NCBI GenBank assembly: GCA_003645255.1
Contig: QNES01000003.1
Span: 1-64,000 of the forward strand
Length of the DNA: 64,000 nt
Origin: Gammaproteobacteria bacterium
GTDB lineage: Bacteria > Pseudomonadota > Gammaproteobacteria > Beggiatoales > Beggiatoaceae
Direction: 5' to 3'
Under the pieces are notes generated by a model. The model searched no databases. It was not told where the DNA came from and saw only the letters and a list, made by a program, of their open reading frames with translations. Of this stretch, positions 38,148-43,185 are shown piece after piece (the first letter of the stretch is position 1; every line of letters begins with the position of its first letter). Made by a program: the position numbers and the translations under genes.

Positions 38148-38792
38148 TCAAAGCCCTTGTCTGGCATTATCAGAACTTTCCAATGATTCAATCGCAATGG
38201 TGTATCTTAGCGTATCGTCATTTTTAAGCACACTGTATTTATTAATTGTCAGAGCATTTTCTCTTTGTTTTGAGACAAATTCGCTTATGTCTATTATTTC
38301 AATCGGACTTGTTCCATATTTTTCAAGAATTTTGCCTCGTAAGCCTAATTGAATAGCCCGCCTTTCAACTTTTTTCCCAGTTGGAGAGTGATCTGGGTCC
38401 CATTGTAACCGTACTTCAGATTGCTTGACTGCTTGCTTCCATTCATCTTGACTATGAAATAACTTTTTATTAAAAGATGAAACAACTGCATTTTCAAGCA
38501 TTTCATCAAATAAATTTATAGAAATTCTAACAGCAAGAATGATCTCTTGTCCAGGTTTTGTAGCCCATCCCGATCTATACATCATCCATAGAAAGTTGGG
38601 TTTTATCCAACTCATTCTTGAATAGCTGAAAGGACCACCAAAATATCCTTTTGATGCTGCAAAATTTCCAATTTCTTTTCGATAAGCTTGATAAACAATA
38701 ATCGACTCTTCATCGTATTGTGCAAGAATATGACGACCCGTTTGAGGCCAATTTTTGACTTGTTCTTTATATGAGCAAATTGTTAGATTCAT
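38148..38792 (-). CDS. DUF4291 protein
   Basis: The 214-residue protein carries the DUF4291 core: HILAQYDEESIIVYQAYRKE (21-40), then SRMSWIKPNFLWMMYRSGWA, then FNKKLFHSQDEWK. The family is widespread, soluble and of unknown function. It lies 19 nt downstream of the binding-protein/MscS fusion gene and may be co-transcribed with it. Confidence 0.88.
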   Translation of the reverse strand: MNLTICSYKEQVKNWPQTGRHILAQYDEESIIVYQAYRKEIGNFAASKGYFGGPFSYSRMSWIKPNFLWMMYRSGWATKPGQEIILAVRISINLFDEMLENAVVSSFNKKLFHSQDEWKQAVKQSEVRLQWDPDHSPTGKKVERRAIQLGLRGKILEKYGTSPIEIIDISEFVSKQRENALTINKYSVLKNDDTLRYTIAIESLESSDNARQGL

Positions 38793-38811: not shown

Positions 38812-41796
38812 CTAGCGAGTCCGATTTACCATCATCTTCTGCAAGTCTTCTGATTGAAAAACTTTGTTAAGTTTGATTTCAATTGGAAAAGTGGCACTTT
38901 GATTGCTTTTTTGAGTTTCTTCCTCAGTTTGATAATGTGACAGTTTAGGAAGGATGCCATTATTATTCAAATGCACCCAAATATTATCCCAAACTTGTTT
39001 TAAAGTACGGAATTTGAGAAGATAATTTTTGGTTTCAAAAACGATGATATAAACTGCTACCCATTCTTCCTTACCCGCATCCGTTTGGACATCTTTAAGC
39101 CAAATCACAGGTTTAAAGTCTTTTATCACTTCTTCTACAGAAAGTATCGCGTTTATGAAAATTTCTTCGACTTTTCTGGGATCATGGTTTGTCGCAATTG
39201 GCACGGTAAGCCGTAACCGATATTGATTATCAGGATAACTGAAATTGTGGATGTCTGATTGTGAAACGGTGCTATTAGGAATACTTAAAATATATCCCTT
39301 TCTGGTTTCAATTTGTGTGACTCGCCAATTCATATTAACCACTTGCCCTTCATCAAAATTACCTACTTTCACCCAATCACCAATGCGAAAAGAACGCTCA
39401 ATACTTAGTCCAATGCCCGAAAAAATGTTGGCTAAATTAACTTGAATCCCTAAACCAACAATCATGGCAACCACACCCGAAGTGGCTAATAAACTGGTGA
39501 CAGCTTGTTCAAATACAAAGCCGACGATACCCAATGCTGCTAATAAATAAATTAAGAGTGAAACTAAAAAACGCACCAGATTCGGGATGGAATGTCCTGT
39601 TTTTTTCTCTAATGGTAGCCATAAAAAATGTTCGACAGCGATATTAAGCAAGATAGCCGGTATTATCCACCAGAGTAGTTCAAATATCATGGTGATAGTT
39701 TTAATCTGAAAAATAATTTGGCTATGATTAGCTATCCAATGTTCTACAACCACTTCAGTTGATATAAGTAAAATAAACGCAAAAATAGCCTGTAAAAACC
39801 ATAAATATTTTAGGTGTTTAATGTTCCGTTTCTGCTTATAACTGAAAAAAATCAGTAACAAGGTGATAATCGCACTGAATATAAAAAACTCCGTCGTGAA
39901 GTGAGAGGGAATAATGGCATGATAAAAATCAGCATTATTGCTAATCCAAATTTCTGCATTGAAGGTAGAATATTCAAGACTATGATCAAGTAAGAGATAT
40001 TTGGGCGCACCTAAAACTTTTTTTTCGACGGTGGCTTGGAAAAAATCGACTCCTTTAATTATCCAGTCTTTTAAGGTACTTAGTTGTTGAATATTTTTAA
40101 TCTTGTCATCTAATAAAGTACTTTCATATACCGGTTCCATTCCTAAAACATCTTTCACATAAACCAGATTATTTCGTTCTAAATCACGATGACGGAAATT
40201 GACACCGAGTCGATATTCGGTTGAAAAAATATGACTTCTTGAAAAATGAACATTGGCTTTAAATTCCCCCTTTATTCTATAAAGTCGGTAGCTTTCCTTA
40301 CCAACTGTTTCCTCAGCAAGCGGAGTACCTAATGGAATAGGCTCAATGCTATTAAGAAATACAATATCTTGCGGATTGATCTGCCCTTCAAATCGAAACC
40401 AAAGAAAAAAATCTTGGGTATAAGTTAACGTTTTGGGGTTAAAATCGCTAATCTCGTTAAATTGTATACCTGTATAAACGACATGTGTTTGGTACATGTA
40501 TTTTTTATTTTTATTAATGAGAAAATATATTGGAGCTGGTTGCTGATGATATTCATCCAAATAATAGGGCACAAGATTGAGCTGTTGAAAGGTAGAAATT
40601 AAATGATTTTTTTTATAAACACCCATTAAAACGGATTTTGTGGCATTGCCACGACTATCAAAATAATTTAAGCCAGTATATCCTTCTATTGCTTGTTCAG
40701 GGCTATTAAAAAAGGTTATTGCATCCCGAATGTTTTTTCTATCTATTTTCAATGTTTTTGGTTTTCCCCGAAAGTCACTTTGTTTTATGGCTTCGAGAAT
40801 CACAATAGCCGCATCGACGGCAAAAAATGCTTGCAAGGGCAATTGTTCCCCATATTTTTCTTCATAAATGGAATTTAACTGTTGGGCATTTCTATTAGCG
40901 GTATCAAACAGGAAGGGGGTTGAAACATGGATATCGCTTGTATAATAACCGAGGGTACGCTTTTCTTTTATATATTTTTTGAAACCTTCTGAAAAACTTT
41001 TGCTGGCATAAGAATCAGGGGCGATAAGTGGATTTTTAATTTTCATATCCTTAATTAATTTTACTAGCATAACACCTTCAGGAGCGTGTGTTGCTAGAAA
41101 AATCAGACCCGCATCCTGTTTGCTTCGCAATTCATTAAGGATTTGTACGATATTATGTCTTAATTCGTTCTTTTGTTCTAGTTGCCATTTATATTTGACT
41201 TCAACATTTAACGCTTTTGAGGTTGTTTCAAACACCTCTGCAAGATGAGAACCATAAACCGTATTGCTATAAATGATACTGACAGTATCTTGTTGTAGAA
41301 GATTTTTGGCGTAATTGGCTAAAAAATGACCTTGTAAATTGTCATTAAAAACGGTTCTGAAATACCATTTGTTATGTTCAGTGACTTCAGCGTGTGTAGA
41401 ACTGGGAGTGATCGCCACTATCCCTTGTTTTTGATAAATTTTTCCCGCGCTGATCGAACAAGCACTATAATTATGTCCAATAACGGCAATGGCACGATTG
41501 TCTGCCACAATTTTCTGCGCTGCAATAATGGCTTCATTAGGATCATTTTTGTCATCAAAAGTCTCAAGCATGACCTTTTTTTTATTAACGCCCCCTTGTT
41601 TATTGACACTATCTAGGTATAATTGAACTGCTCGCTTCATGGCAATGCCTACAGTAGCGTCTGATCCTGATAAAGGACCTACAAAGGCAATATGAATAGC
41701 ATTCTTTTCTTCATGATAGAGTTTTAAGCCTGCCCAGATTAACAAGGATAAAATAACGATATTTAATAGAAATTTGATGGGATATTTTATTTTCAT
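38812..41796 (-). CDS. Periplasmic ligand-binding domain fused to an MscS-type channel
   Basis: The 994-residue protein starts with a membrane anchor (FLLNIVILSLLIWAGLKLY), then a full type I periplasmic-binding domain of the LivJ/Peripla_BP_6 type (about 33-400; IAFVGPLSGSDATVGIAMKR, VIGHNYSACS, TPSSTHAEVTEHNKWYFRTV). A linker of about 240 residues follows, then about four or five helices and an MscS core from about 750 (SGVVAMIVGLGIQVNLANIF, GLSIERSFRIGDWVKVG, LSIPNSTVSQSDIHNFSY). Ligand binding outside may gate ion flow, an architecture akin to ionotropic receptors. Both halves are in one uninterrupted frame. Confidence 0.85.
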   Translation of the reverse strand: MKIKYPIKFLLNIVILSLLIWAGLKLYHEEKNAIHIAFVGPLSGSDATVGIAMKRAVQLYLDSVNKQGGVNKKKVMLETFDDKNDPNEAIIAAQKIVADNRAIAVIGHNYSACSISAGKIYQKQGIVAITPSSTHAEVTEHNKWYFRTVFNDNLQGHFLANYAKNLLQQDTVSIIYSNTVYGSHLAEVFETTSKALNVEVKYKWQLEQKNELRHNIVQILNELRSKQDAGLIFLATHAPEGVMLVKLIKDMKIKNPLIAPDSYASKSFSEGFKKYIKEKRTLGYYTSDIHVSTPFLFDTANRNAQQLNSIYEEKYGEQLPLQAFFAVDAAIVILEAIKQSDFRGKPKTLKIDRKNIRDAITFFNSPEQAIEGYTGLNYFDSRGNATKSVLMGVYKKNHLISTFQQLNLVPYYLDEYHQQPAPIYFLINKNKKYMYQTHVVYTGIQFNEISDFNPKTLTYTQDFFLWFRFEGQINPQDIVFLNSIEPIPLGTPLAEETVGKESYRLYRIKGEFKANVHFSRSHIFSTEYRLGVNFRHRDLERNNLVYVKDVLGMEPVYESTLLDDKIKNIQQLSTLKDWIIKGVDFFQATVEKKVLGAPKYLLLDHSLEYSTFNAEIWISNNADFYHAIIPSHFTTEFFIFSAIITLLLIFFSYKQKRNIKHLKYLWFLQAIFAFILLISTEVVVEHWIANHSQIIFQIKTITMIFELLWWIIPAILLNIAVEHFLWLPLEKKTGHSIPNLVRFLVSLLIYLLAALGIVGFVFEQAVTSLLATSGVVAMIVGLGIQVNLANIFSGIGLSIERSFRIGDWVKVGNFDEGQVVNMNWRVTQIETRKGYILSIPNSTVSQSDIHNFSYPDNQYRLRLTVPIATNHDPRKVEEIFINAILSVEEVIKDFKPVIWLKDVQTDAGKEEWVAVYIIVFETKNYLLKFRTLKQVWDNIWVHLNNNGILPKLSHYQTEEETQKSNQSATFPIEIKLNKVFQSEDLQKMMVNRTR

Positions 41797-42398: not shown

Positions 42399-42509
42399 AT
42401 ACTGGACTGAAATCAAATTTGTGAAAATGTTGCTCAGTATAGAAATCCTATTTTTTTTTAAATCCTATTTTTTTATTCTTTAATTTTCACAAATTTCAAG
42501 TACGCTATA
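42399..42509. repeat. Composite inverted repeat (ATACTG...GTGAAAAT family)
   Basis: The left arm ATACTGGACTGAAATCAAAT-TTGTGAAAATGTT and right arm AATTTTCACAAATTTCAAGT-ACGCTAT are inverted copies. The middle contains AGAAATCCTATTTTTTTTTA, a decayed form of the AGAAATCCGATTTTT palindrome. The better copy is at 47559-47660. Confidence 0.65.
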
Positions 42510-43185
42510 AACCCGCGAATAATCCACGGCTATATCTAACCACATTTAATTCATTCCGCATAAGTTCTTCGTCTCGAATCGCTAATGGGTGTTCGGTAGC
42601 TGTATTAAAACCCTTTTTGCCTAATACAAGGGTAATGCCAGTCCATTCTTTAGAAAATGCACTTATCGACATACGTAAATTGCCACGACTCGGATCGGCA
42701 AGAAAAACACGATCATCTTTAATGCCCCGTAAAATAGCAAAGTGTTTATCTTTCTTGACATGGATATAAACTAATACTGGTCCCCGTAATTTGGGCAGGG
42801 CAGACATTTTTAATTTAACCCCGACTGCTTGATATCCACGCCGCTTGGCAAATTGTTGTAAGTCGAACATGGAAAAACCCTTTTTTTGACGAGATTCAAT
42901 TTCGACATCGTTGAGATGATGAATGATTTCCTGTAATATTTCCCTTTCGGTGACTTCATCTTGAAAATAATAGTGCATTAAAGTTGCCAGGGCACCAGAA
43001 CCGCAAGAGTAATCAAATTTTTGCATAACCACATTTTGTTCACGAAATTCTTTCCACGTTTTGACAGATTTTACAAAATGCAAATGATGACTAGATAAAA
43101 CCATCGGAGTGGGTGCAAAAACATGACTACAACTACTAAGTAGTAGAATCAGACTTAAAAAAATAGGCCAAATTGAAATATTCAT
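42505..43185 (-). CDS. C39-family peptidase-like lipoprotein
   Basis: A lipoprotein signal (LSLILLLSSC, Cys19) is followed by a papain-fold C39 peptidase domain: the catalytic Cys in FDYSCGSGALATLMHYYF, the His in KKDKHFAILRGI, and the Asp in VFLADPSRGN. Such stand-alone C39 proteins process secreted or amyloid/pilus proteins (FapD is one example). No secretion partner is adjacent. It is divergent from the FAD/Fe-S oxidoreductase gene. Confidence 0.82.
   Translation of the reverse strand: MNISIWPIFLSLILLLSSCSHVFAPTPMVLSSHHLHFVKSVKTWKEFREQNVVMQKFDYSCGSGALATLMHYYFQDEVTEREILQEIIHHLNDVEIESRQKKGFSMFDLQQFAKRRGYQAVGVKLKMSALPKLRGPVLVYIHVKKDKHFAILRGIKDDRVFLADPSRGNLRMSISAFSKEWTGITLVLGKKGFNTATEHPLAIRDEELMRNELNVVRYSRGLFAGL

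Follow-up and report, generated by a model that had tools for sequence, protein, structure and literature searches.

The Locus and Its Domain Organization

The uninterrupted frame of 994 codons that the sequence-only reading of this DNA had described at 38812..41796 is real; it lies on the minus strand of the window (the whole 64,000-nucleotide stretch of DNA that was analysed) and runs from an ATG to a stop codon, and the plus strand is rich in stops over the same interval. The features assigned to this gene and to its product (P0001) are the following:

38812..41796, minus strand: whole gene, 994 aa plus stop, coding for P0001 with a type I periplasmic binding domain (PBP-I), a predicted pLGIC ectodomain and an MscS pore (frame, Pfam)
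41704..41787, minus strand: N-terminal hydrophobic helix, aa 4-31, signal anchor or signal peptide (hydropathy peak at aa 6-24; AlphaFold helix 4-31)
40582..41697, minus strand: type I periplasmic binding domain, aa 34-405, LivJ/LivK/Atu2422-like (Pfam, Foldseek)
41464..41466, minus strand: pocket Ser111, aligned to Ser79 of LivJ/LivK (conserved in 37/37 sequences of the family alignment)
41395..41397, minus strand: pocket Thr134, aligned to Thr102 (sequence alignment)
41014..41016, minus strand: pocket Asp261, aligned to Glu226 of LivK and Asp226 of Atu2422 (sequence alignment)
39931..40524, minus strand: predicted pLGIC (Cys-loop/Pro-loop receptor) ectodomain, aa ~425-622 (HHalign, AF2 model, Foldseek)
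40213..40245, minus strand: degenerate Pro-loop, aa 518-528 (FSRSHIFSTEY; the pLGIC-pore paralogs have DYPLDxQ at the same place)
39397..39906, minus strand: five YnaI-like TM helices, aa 631-654, 659-691, 695-733, 739-761 and 766-800 (AlphaFold, hydropathy, YnaI alignment)
39397..39501, minus strand: pore-lining helix, aa 766-800 (LLATSGVVAMIVGLGIQVNLANIFSG), equivalent to MscS TM3 (YnaI/MscS alignment; near-invariant positions in the family alignment)
39238..39435, minus strand: MscS beta domain, aa 788-853 (Pfam PF00924, E 1.9e-18)
38962..39237, minus strand: C-terminal alpha/beta part of the MscS vestibule, aa 854-945 (AlphaFold elements 859-945)

A full-length AlphaFold model of the window protein (pLDDT 80.5, pTM 0.64) arranges these elements in the order hydrophobic helix, two-lobed binding domain, beta-rich domain (~aa 426-620), five helices and a cytoplasmic beta plus alpha/beta part. 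Because the number of helices that follow the periplasmic region is odd, the MscS vestibule should be located in the cytoplasm, as expected. Pfam MS_channel_3rd has no significant match in the window protein and is present in its tandem paralogs. It is practically beyond doubt that a PBP-I domain comes first, that a pLGIC ectodomain (ECD) comes next and that the chain continues in an MscS pore of the YnaI type, with five helices and a cytoplasmic beta domain. The protein is a natural chimera of PBP-I, a Cys-loop-receptor ECD and an MscS pore; by its pore it belongs to the MscS superfamily, and it is not a pLGIC by membership, because the pLGIC pore and the Pro-loop are both absent.

The channel gene is followed on its strand, after 19 bases, by a DUF4291 gene (window 38148-38792, minus strand), which was not found beside the channel in the other loci fetched; a conserved neighbourhood of the window gene was searched for in these loci and none was seen. 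The window also encodes a C39-family peptidase (42505-43185, minus strand) that resembles FapD/FilB amyloid or pilus maturation peptidases, with an NCBIfam match of 5.4e-31 that is under the equivalog cut-off.

The Periplasmic Binding Domain and Its Predicted Ligand

Pfam Peripla_BP_6 (PF13458) matches aa 34-357 with an E-value of 9.1e-31, far over the cut-off, LivJ/LivK/Atu2422-type binding proteins match aa 34-269 in a sequence search of the PDB, and Foldseek aligns the domain, a two-lobed PBP-I, with LivJ (4gnr; 4.9e-25, TMt 0.86). These matches, together with that of Pfam MS_channel_2nd and the PDB sequence matches, bear out the earlier claim that a LivJ-like domain and an MscS pore are joined in one chain. 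No PBP-II family was found in a Pfam scan of the window protein.

Ser79, Thr102 and Glu/Asp226 of LivJ, LivK and Atu2422 are the residues that contact the alpha-carboxylate and the alpha-amine of an alpha-amino acid. In the sequence alignment, S111, T134 and D261 of the window protein match these LivJ/LivK positions, so that an objection foreseen in the sequence-only reading, a pocket lacking all ligand contacts, does not apply. Position 261 is Asp in the window protein and in its seven closest relatives, and mostly Ser or Thr in the other MscS-type paralogs. Since the acid is kept in its own clade and Ser/Thr is found elsewhere, the ligand of the window clade is predicted to be an amino acid or a GABA-like compound, and the other clades would bind different ligands.

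The MscS Pore and the Membrane Region

The MS_channel_2nd profile (PF00924) matches aa 788-853 with an E-value of 1.9e-18 and 66.8 bits (cut-off 20.2), and phmmer aligns YnaI over aa 638-884, that is, over all five membrane helices and the beta domain; MscS was also matched. Within the pore helix, M778 and L782 align with L and M of YnaI. Neur_chan_memb (PF02932), the four-helix pore M1-M4, has no match in P0001, which contains the five-helix YnaI-like region instead. A retained pLGIC M1 helix was also considered and dropped, since the similarity to pLGICs ends at the membrane entry and the similarity to YnaI spans the five helices. By Pfam, a C-terminal cyclic-nucleotide-binding (cNMP) domain is absent from the window protein and present in a paralog of its own genome (L002).

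GLIC entries of the PDB contain five chains, and MscS and YnaI entries seven. As the deposited structures of pLGICs are pentamers and those of MscS/YnaI are heptamers, the two halves of the protein conflict in symmetry: either the ECD has been re-packed to seven, or the ECDs form no closed ring, or the MscS pore is unusual.

The Middle Region

The segment between the binding domain and the membrane had been described from sequence as a long linker. Taken by itself, the middle domain of the MscS types (A1, 41 sequences) finds nothing related in a Pfam scan or in a PDB profile search and, lacking a direct match, it resembles a linker. A whole-genome search with the window protein yielded paralogs whose similarity is confined to aa 1-640. 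Two of them, L005 (756 aa) and L006 (776 aa), both from the genome of the window itself, have a PBP-I domain followed by weak Neur_chan_LBD and Neur_chan_memb matches. These genes (L005:1183-3450 and L006:655-2982) code for two PBP-I-pLGICs that are co-resident with the chimera. Their Neur_chan_memb matches are under the Pfam cut-off, so that standard annotation would probably miss them, and a PF02932 search of the own genome gave no match because its pLGIC paralogs fall under the search threshold.

When 31 PBP-fused ectodomain and membrane regions were aligned (A4), the resulting profile matched GLIC and GABA-A chimeras along the entire ECD and pore (1.5e-26), and HHalign connects the MscS-type and pLGIC-type middle domains with a probability of 100% and E-values of 1.6e-58 (A2) and 1.1e-53 (A4), with 31% identity across the full domain. 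AlphaFold, run on A1 alone, produced a confident beta sandwich (pLDDT 82.4); A1 contains no pLGIC-pore sequence and this structural evidence is thus independent of the paralogs. In a Foldseek comparison with the PDB, the best 50 matches listed were all AChBP, pLGIC ectodomains or pLGICs, including AChBP (the best, 2.5e-10), nAChR alpha2, GABA-A, RDL and GLIC, with a probability of 1.00 and TM-scores of 0.50-0.56 to the query. Because direct profile searches find no pLGIC, the identity of the ECD rests on the paralog bridge and the predicted structure, from which aa ~425-622 are predicted to be a complete Cys-loop-receptor (pLGIC) ectodomain, a folded domain in place of the supposed linker.

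Loss of the Pro-Loop

Throughout the superfamily only the Cys-loop proline is conserved absolutely; it has been grouped with the residues of the ECD/membrane interface, and Y/FPxD has been considered the best marker of the superfamily (Jaiteh et al. 2016, PMC4795631). This Y/F-P-x-D motif is absent from the window protein, which contains SHIFSTEY at that place. All 34 PBP-fused proteins with a pLGIC pore (34/34) have [FYW]PxDxQ, and [FYW]PxD stands at the Pro-loop place in 1/116 MscS-pore sequences; as overlapping fetches left near-duplicates among these 116 and the loss was maybe a single event, this is a striking correlation and not a statistic of independent events. The sole exception (L075:1-2712, from a Desulfonema limicola MAG) has YPIDKH and is a possible transitional form. 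The pattern fits a Pro-loop that serves coupling to the pLGIC pore and is dispensable once that pore is lost, and the ECD could now be a mere spacer.

Distribution and Direction of the Pore Change

Among 84,980 species genomes scanned, 143 relatives were found. The order PBP-I, ECD and MscS pore, with or without a C-terminal cNMP-binding domain, is present in more than 100 intact frames, so that the search for the same domain pair that had been proposed earlier found it in the same order, and the statement that such proteins are much rarer than other MscS fusions proved too strong for a family of more than 100 members from several phyla, largely missed by annotation. Among the loci kept, the carriers are Thioploca, Parabeggiatoa, Halobeggiatoa and Thiomargarita relatives in the Gammaproteobacteria (the window's kin), Desulfonema magnum, Desulfoluna and Desulfamplus in the Desulfobacteria, and Magnetospirillum moscoviense and Rhodospirillales in the Alphaproteobacteria; one MAG each of SAR324, Cloacimonadota, Spirochaetota and Myxococcota also carries the intact architecture. 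The carriers found are mostly large filamentous sulfur bacteria and sulfate reducers, in which the genes are multiplied. In a sample of the window's phylum, the ectodomain was found in 43 of 398 genomes, several of them with both pLGIC-pore and MscS-pore versions. The fusion is intact on the closed chromosome of Desulfonema magnum 4be13 (L061) and in a single-contig 4.8-Mb genome (G003: L033, L034), and the suspicion that assembly had joined two genes in error failed on these genomes.

In a PBP+ECD tree of 73 sequences the pore type changes once (SH-aLRT 99), and in an ECD tree with a plain pLGIC outgroup the MscS types form one clade (49/49, SH-aLRT 100). A single pore change in the family tree is, in our judgement, highly probable. 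Whether the MscS types are nested within the PBP-pLGICs was also tested: a tree constrained to PBP-pLGIC monophyly was not rejected and even had the higher score (p-AU 0.77). Since the outgroup has a pLGIC pore, the MscS pore is derived by parsimony, and, with nesting not established, the direction of the change rests on this outgroup. We infer that a PBP-I-pLGIC exchanged its pore for an MscS pore at the boundary between ECD and membrane, the window protein being a pore-swapped derivative of the bacterial PBP-I-pLGICs.

In ~13 genomes, including the window's own, an MscS-type gene without the cNMP domain is followed on the same strand by one that has it, suggesting heteromers that sense a solute outside the cell and a cyclic nucleotide within it. 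The pair of the window genome (L003:1330-4341 and L002:985-4434) is located on contig C4, and further tandem pairs are found at L033, L035, L036, L041, L042, L062, L070, L072, L102, L105, L108 and L112.

Several relatives depart from these layouts. Two PBP-I-pLGICs (L040:2981-6544 and L045:2501-6070) contain an unrelated SBP_bac_1 domain, confirmed by Pfam, after the last membrane helix and topologically periplasmic, a pLGIC with two binding proteins; by their similar length, L103:7944-11552, L109:4702-8244, L116:4702-8265, L122:4696-8265 and L124 are candidates for the same fusion. In L174 (1418-2620 and 2601-4925, minus strand), a PBP-pLGIC gene overlaps a downstream PBP-less pLGIC-like gene by ~20 bases, and their products possibly form a heteromer. 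A 716-aa frame (L183:1866-4013) encodes PBP-I and the ectodomain and ends without a detected pore domain. A relative 56% identical to the window protein is split across several frames (L048/L032, genome G018) and looks like a decayed copy or a sequencing error.

Proposed Mechanism and Alternative Explanations

The window protein is probably a chimeric channel of the inner membrane, which would be gated by a ligand, the natural reading that the sequence-only reading had also reached. A small solute, in the window clade an amino acid or a GABA-like compound, would shut the periplasmic PBP cleft, and this movement would pass to the ECD below, which may tilt or twist, so that the junction before TM1 would pull the outer YnaI-like helices. 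The pore helix would then open at its hydrophobic gate (by alignment, M778/L782) and let ions flow. Where a cytoplasmic cNMP-binding domain is present, as in many relatives, this pore would also report the level of cyclic nucleotide. The channel would be composed of seven subunits, following the MscS rule and with an ECD known only as a pentamer re-packed, or of five. More tentatively, these proteins may constitute a separate class of ligand-gated channels, in which a Cys-loop ECD otherwise known only from pentamers on its own pore was transferred to an MscS pore of seven subunits and continues to gate it, with the Pro-loop discarded and a new ECD-to-MscS coupling, and in which the paired genes with and without the cNMP domain form heteromers that integrate outside solute, second messenger and possibly tension.

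A tension-gated osmotic valve like YnaI or MscS, whose PBP and pLGIC-like domains modulate or anchor it (responding, for example, to periplasmic crowding or solute load) without gating it, appears unlikely. The pore region is that of an ordinary YnaI-type MscS with all five helices and the Pro-loop coupling element is lost, as a valve would have it, but the PBP pocket contacts are kept and the genome also encodes this pair of sensors on true pLGIC pores, for which opening by tension would be unexpected. In addition, the window genome contains three further MscS-type genes without a detected sensor, so that the valve role is probably already covered.

The pore helix is among the best-conserved parts of the membrane domain, and, apart from the MscS vestibule, the window protein lacks a cytoplasmic output domain; both points speak against a non-conducting, metabotropic-like receptor that signals through the MscS scaffold, possibly in a chemotaxis-type pathway. 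This explanation is improbable, although many relatives contain a cNMP-binding domain and chemotaxis roles have been proposed for bacterial pLGICs (Tasneem 2005, PMC549065).

It is very hard to sustain that the middle region is an unrelated beta-sandwich or a spacer whose similarity to pLGICs is convergent: the lack of a direct Pfam/PDB sequence match and of the Pro-loop motif would agree with it, whereas the 31% identity that the full-length domain shares with bona fide pLGIC ectodomains (E 1.1e-53), the Foldseek probability of 1.0 and the YPID kept by an MscS-type member (L075) argue against it. An assembly or gene-calling artefact joining two genes can be dismissed, because, although the window genome is a 313-contig draft, the same fusion recurs in more than 100 frames, on the closed D. 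magnum chromosome and in a single-contig genome.

A natural chimera of this kind makes several questions testable: what the Pro-loop is for, given its loss alongside the pLGIC pore; whether an ectodomain can shift from five to seven subunits; how MscS pores can be gated by ligands; and what the bacterial relatives of Cys-loop receptors sense.

Comparison with Known Systems

Ionotropic receptors, to which the protein had been compared from sequence, are not the closest comparison, because the middle region is a predicted pLGIC ectodomain and the bacterial PBP-I-pLGICs are the closest relatives. In ionotropic glutamate receptors, a PBP-II ligand core is interrupted by an inverted K+-channel-like pore. 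They share with the window protein a PBP-I-type N-terminal domain on a channel; unlike them, it has neither the PBP-II core nor the inverted pore.

On the side of the pore, the window protein shares with YnaI and MscS the whole five-helix membrane domain, the pore helix and the beta domain, whereas YnaI has no large periplasmic domains and the window protein has ~600 sensor residues before TM1. Fifteen MscS subfamilies have been described, some of them with ligand-binding domains (PMC4560390), and the bCNG channels combine an MscS pore with a C-terminal cyclic-nucleotide-binding domain (Caldwell 2010, cited in PMC4560390). Like bCNG, the proteins studied here have a ligand-binding domain on an MscS pore, and many of the relatives end in a cNMP-binding domain; the window protein has no cNMP domain, and for bCNG channels the part of this literature that was found describes no periplasmic PBP or pLGIC ectodomain.

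On the side of the sensor, the ectodomain fold is shared with GLIC (a Gloeobacter pLGIC), nAChR and GABA-A, although the window protein has neither the M1-M4 pore nor the Pro-loop and contains an additional PBP-I. DeCLIC also has a pLGIC ectodomain with an extra N-terminal periplasmic domain, but its pore is of the pLGIC type (PMC9897478). The closest layout is that of the PBP-I-pLGIC fusions of Magnetospirillum magnetotacticum and Bradyrhizobium japonicum (Tasneem et al. 2005, PMC549065), in which an N-terminal PBP-I is followed by a pLGIC ectodomain. The paralogs described above have this layout too, and in both domains these paralogs are homologous to the window protein. The fusions of 2005 retain the pLGIC pore with its four helices, whereas the window protein has an MscS pore and no Pro-loop. 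PBP-I-pLGIC and MscS-cNMP fusions were thus already known. A pLGIC ectodomain on an MscS pore, of which no description was found in the open-access literature, is apparently new; it joins in a natural protein fast synaptic receptors and mechanosensitive channels, unrelated superfamilies of different symmetry, suggesting that evolution kept the sensing end of the receptor while swapping its pore.
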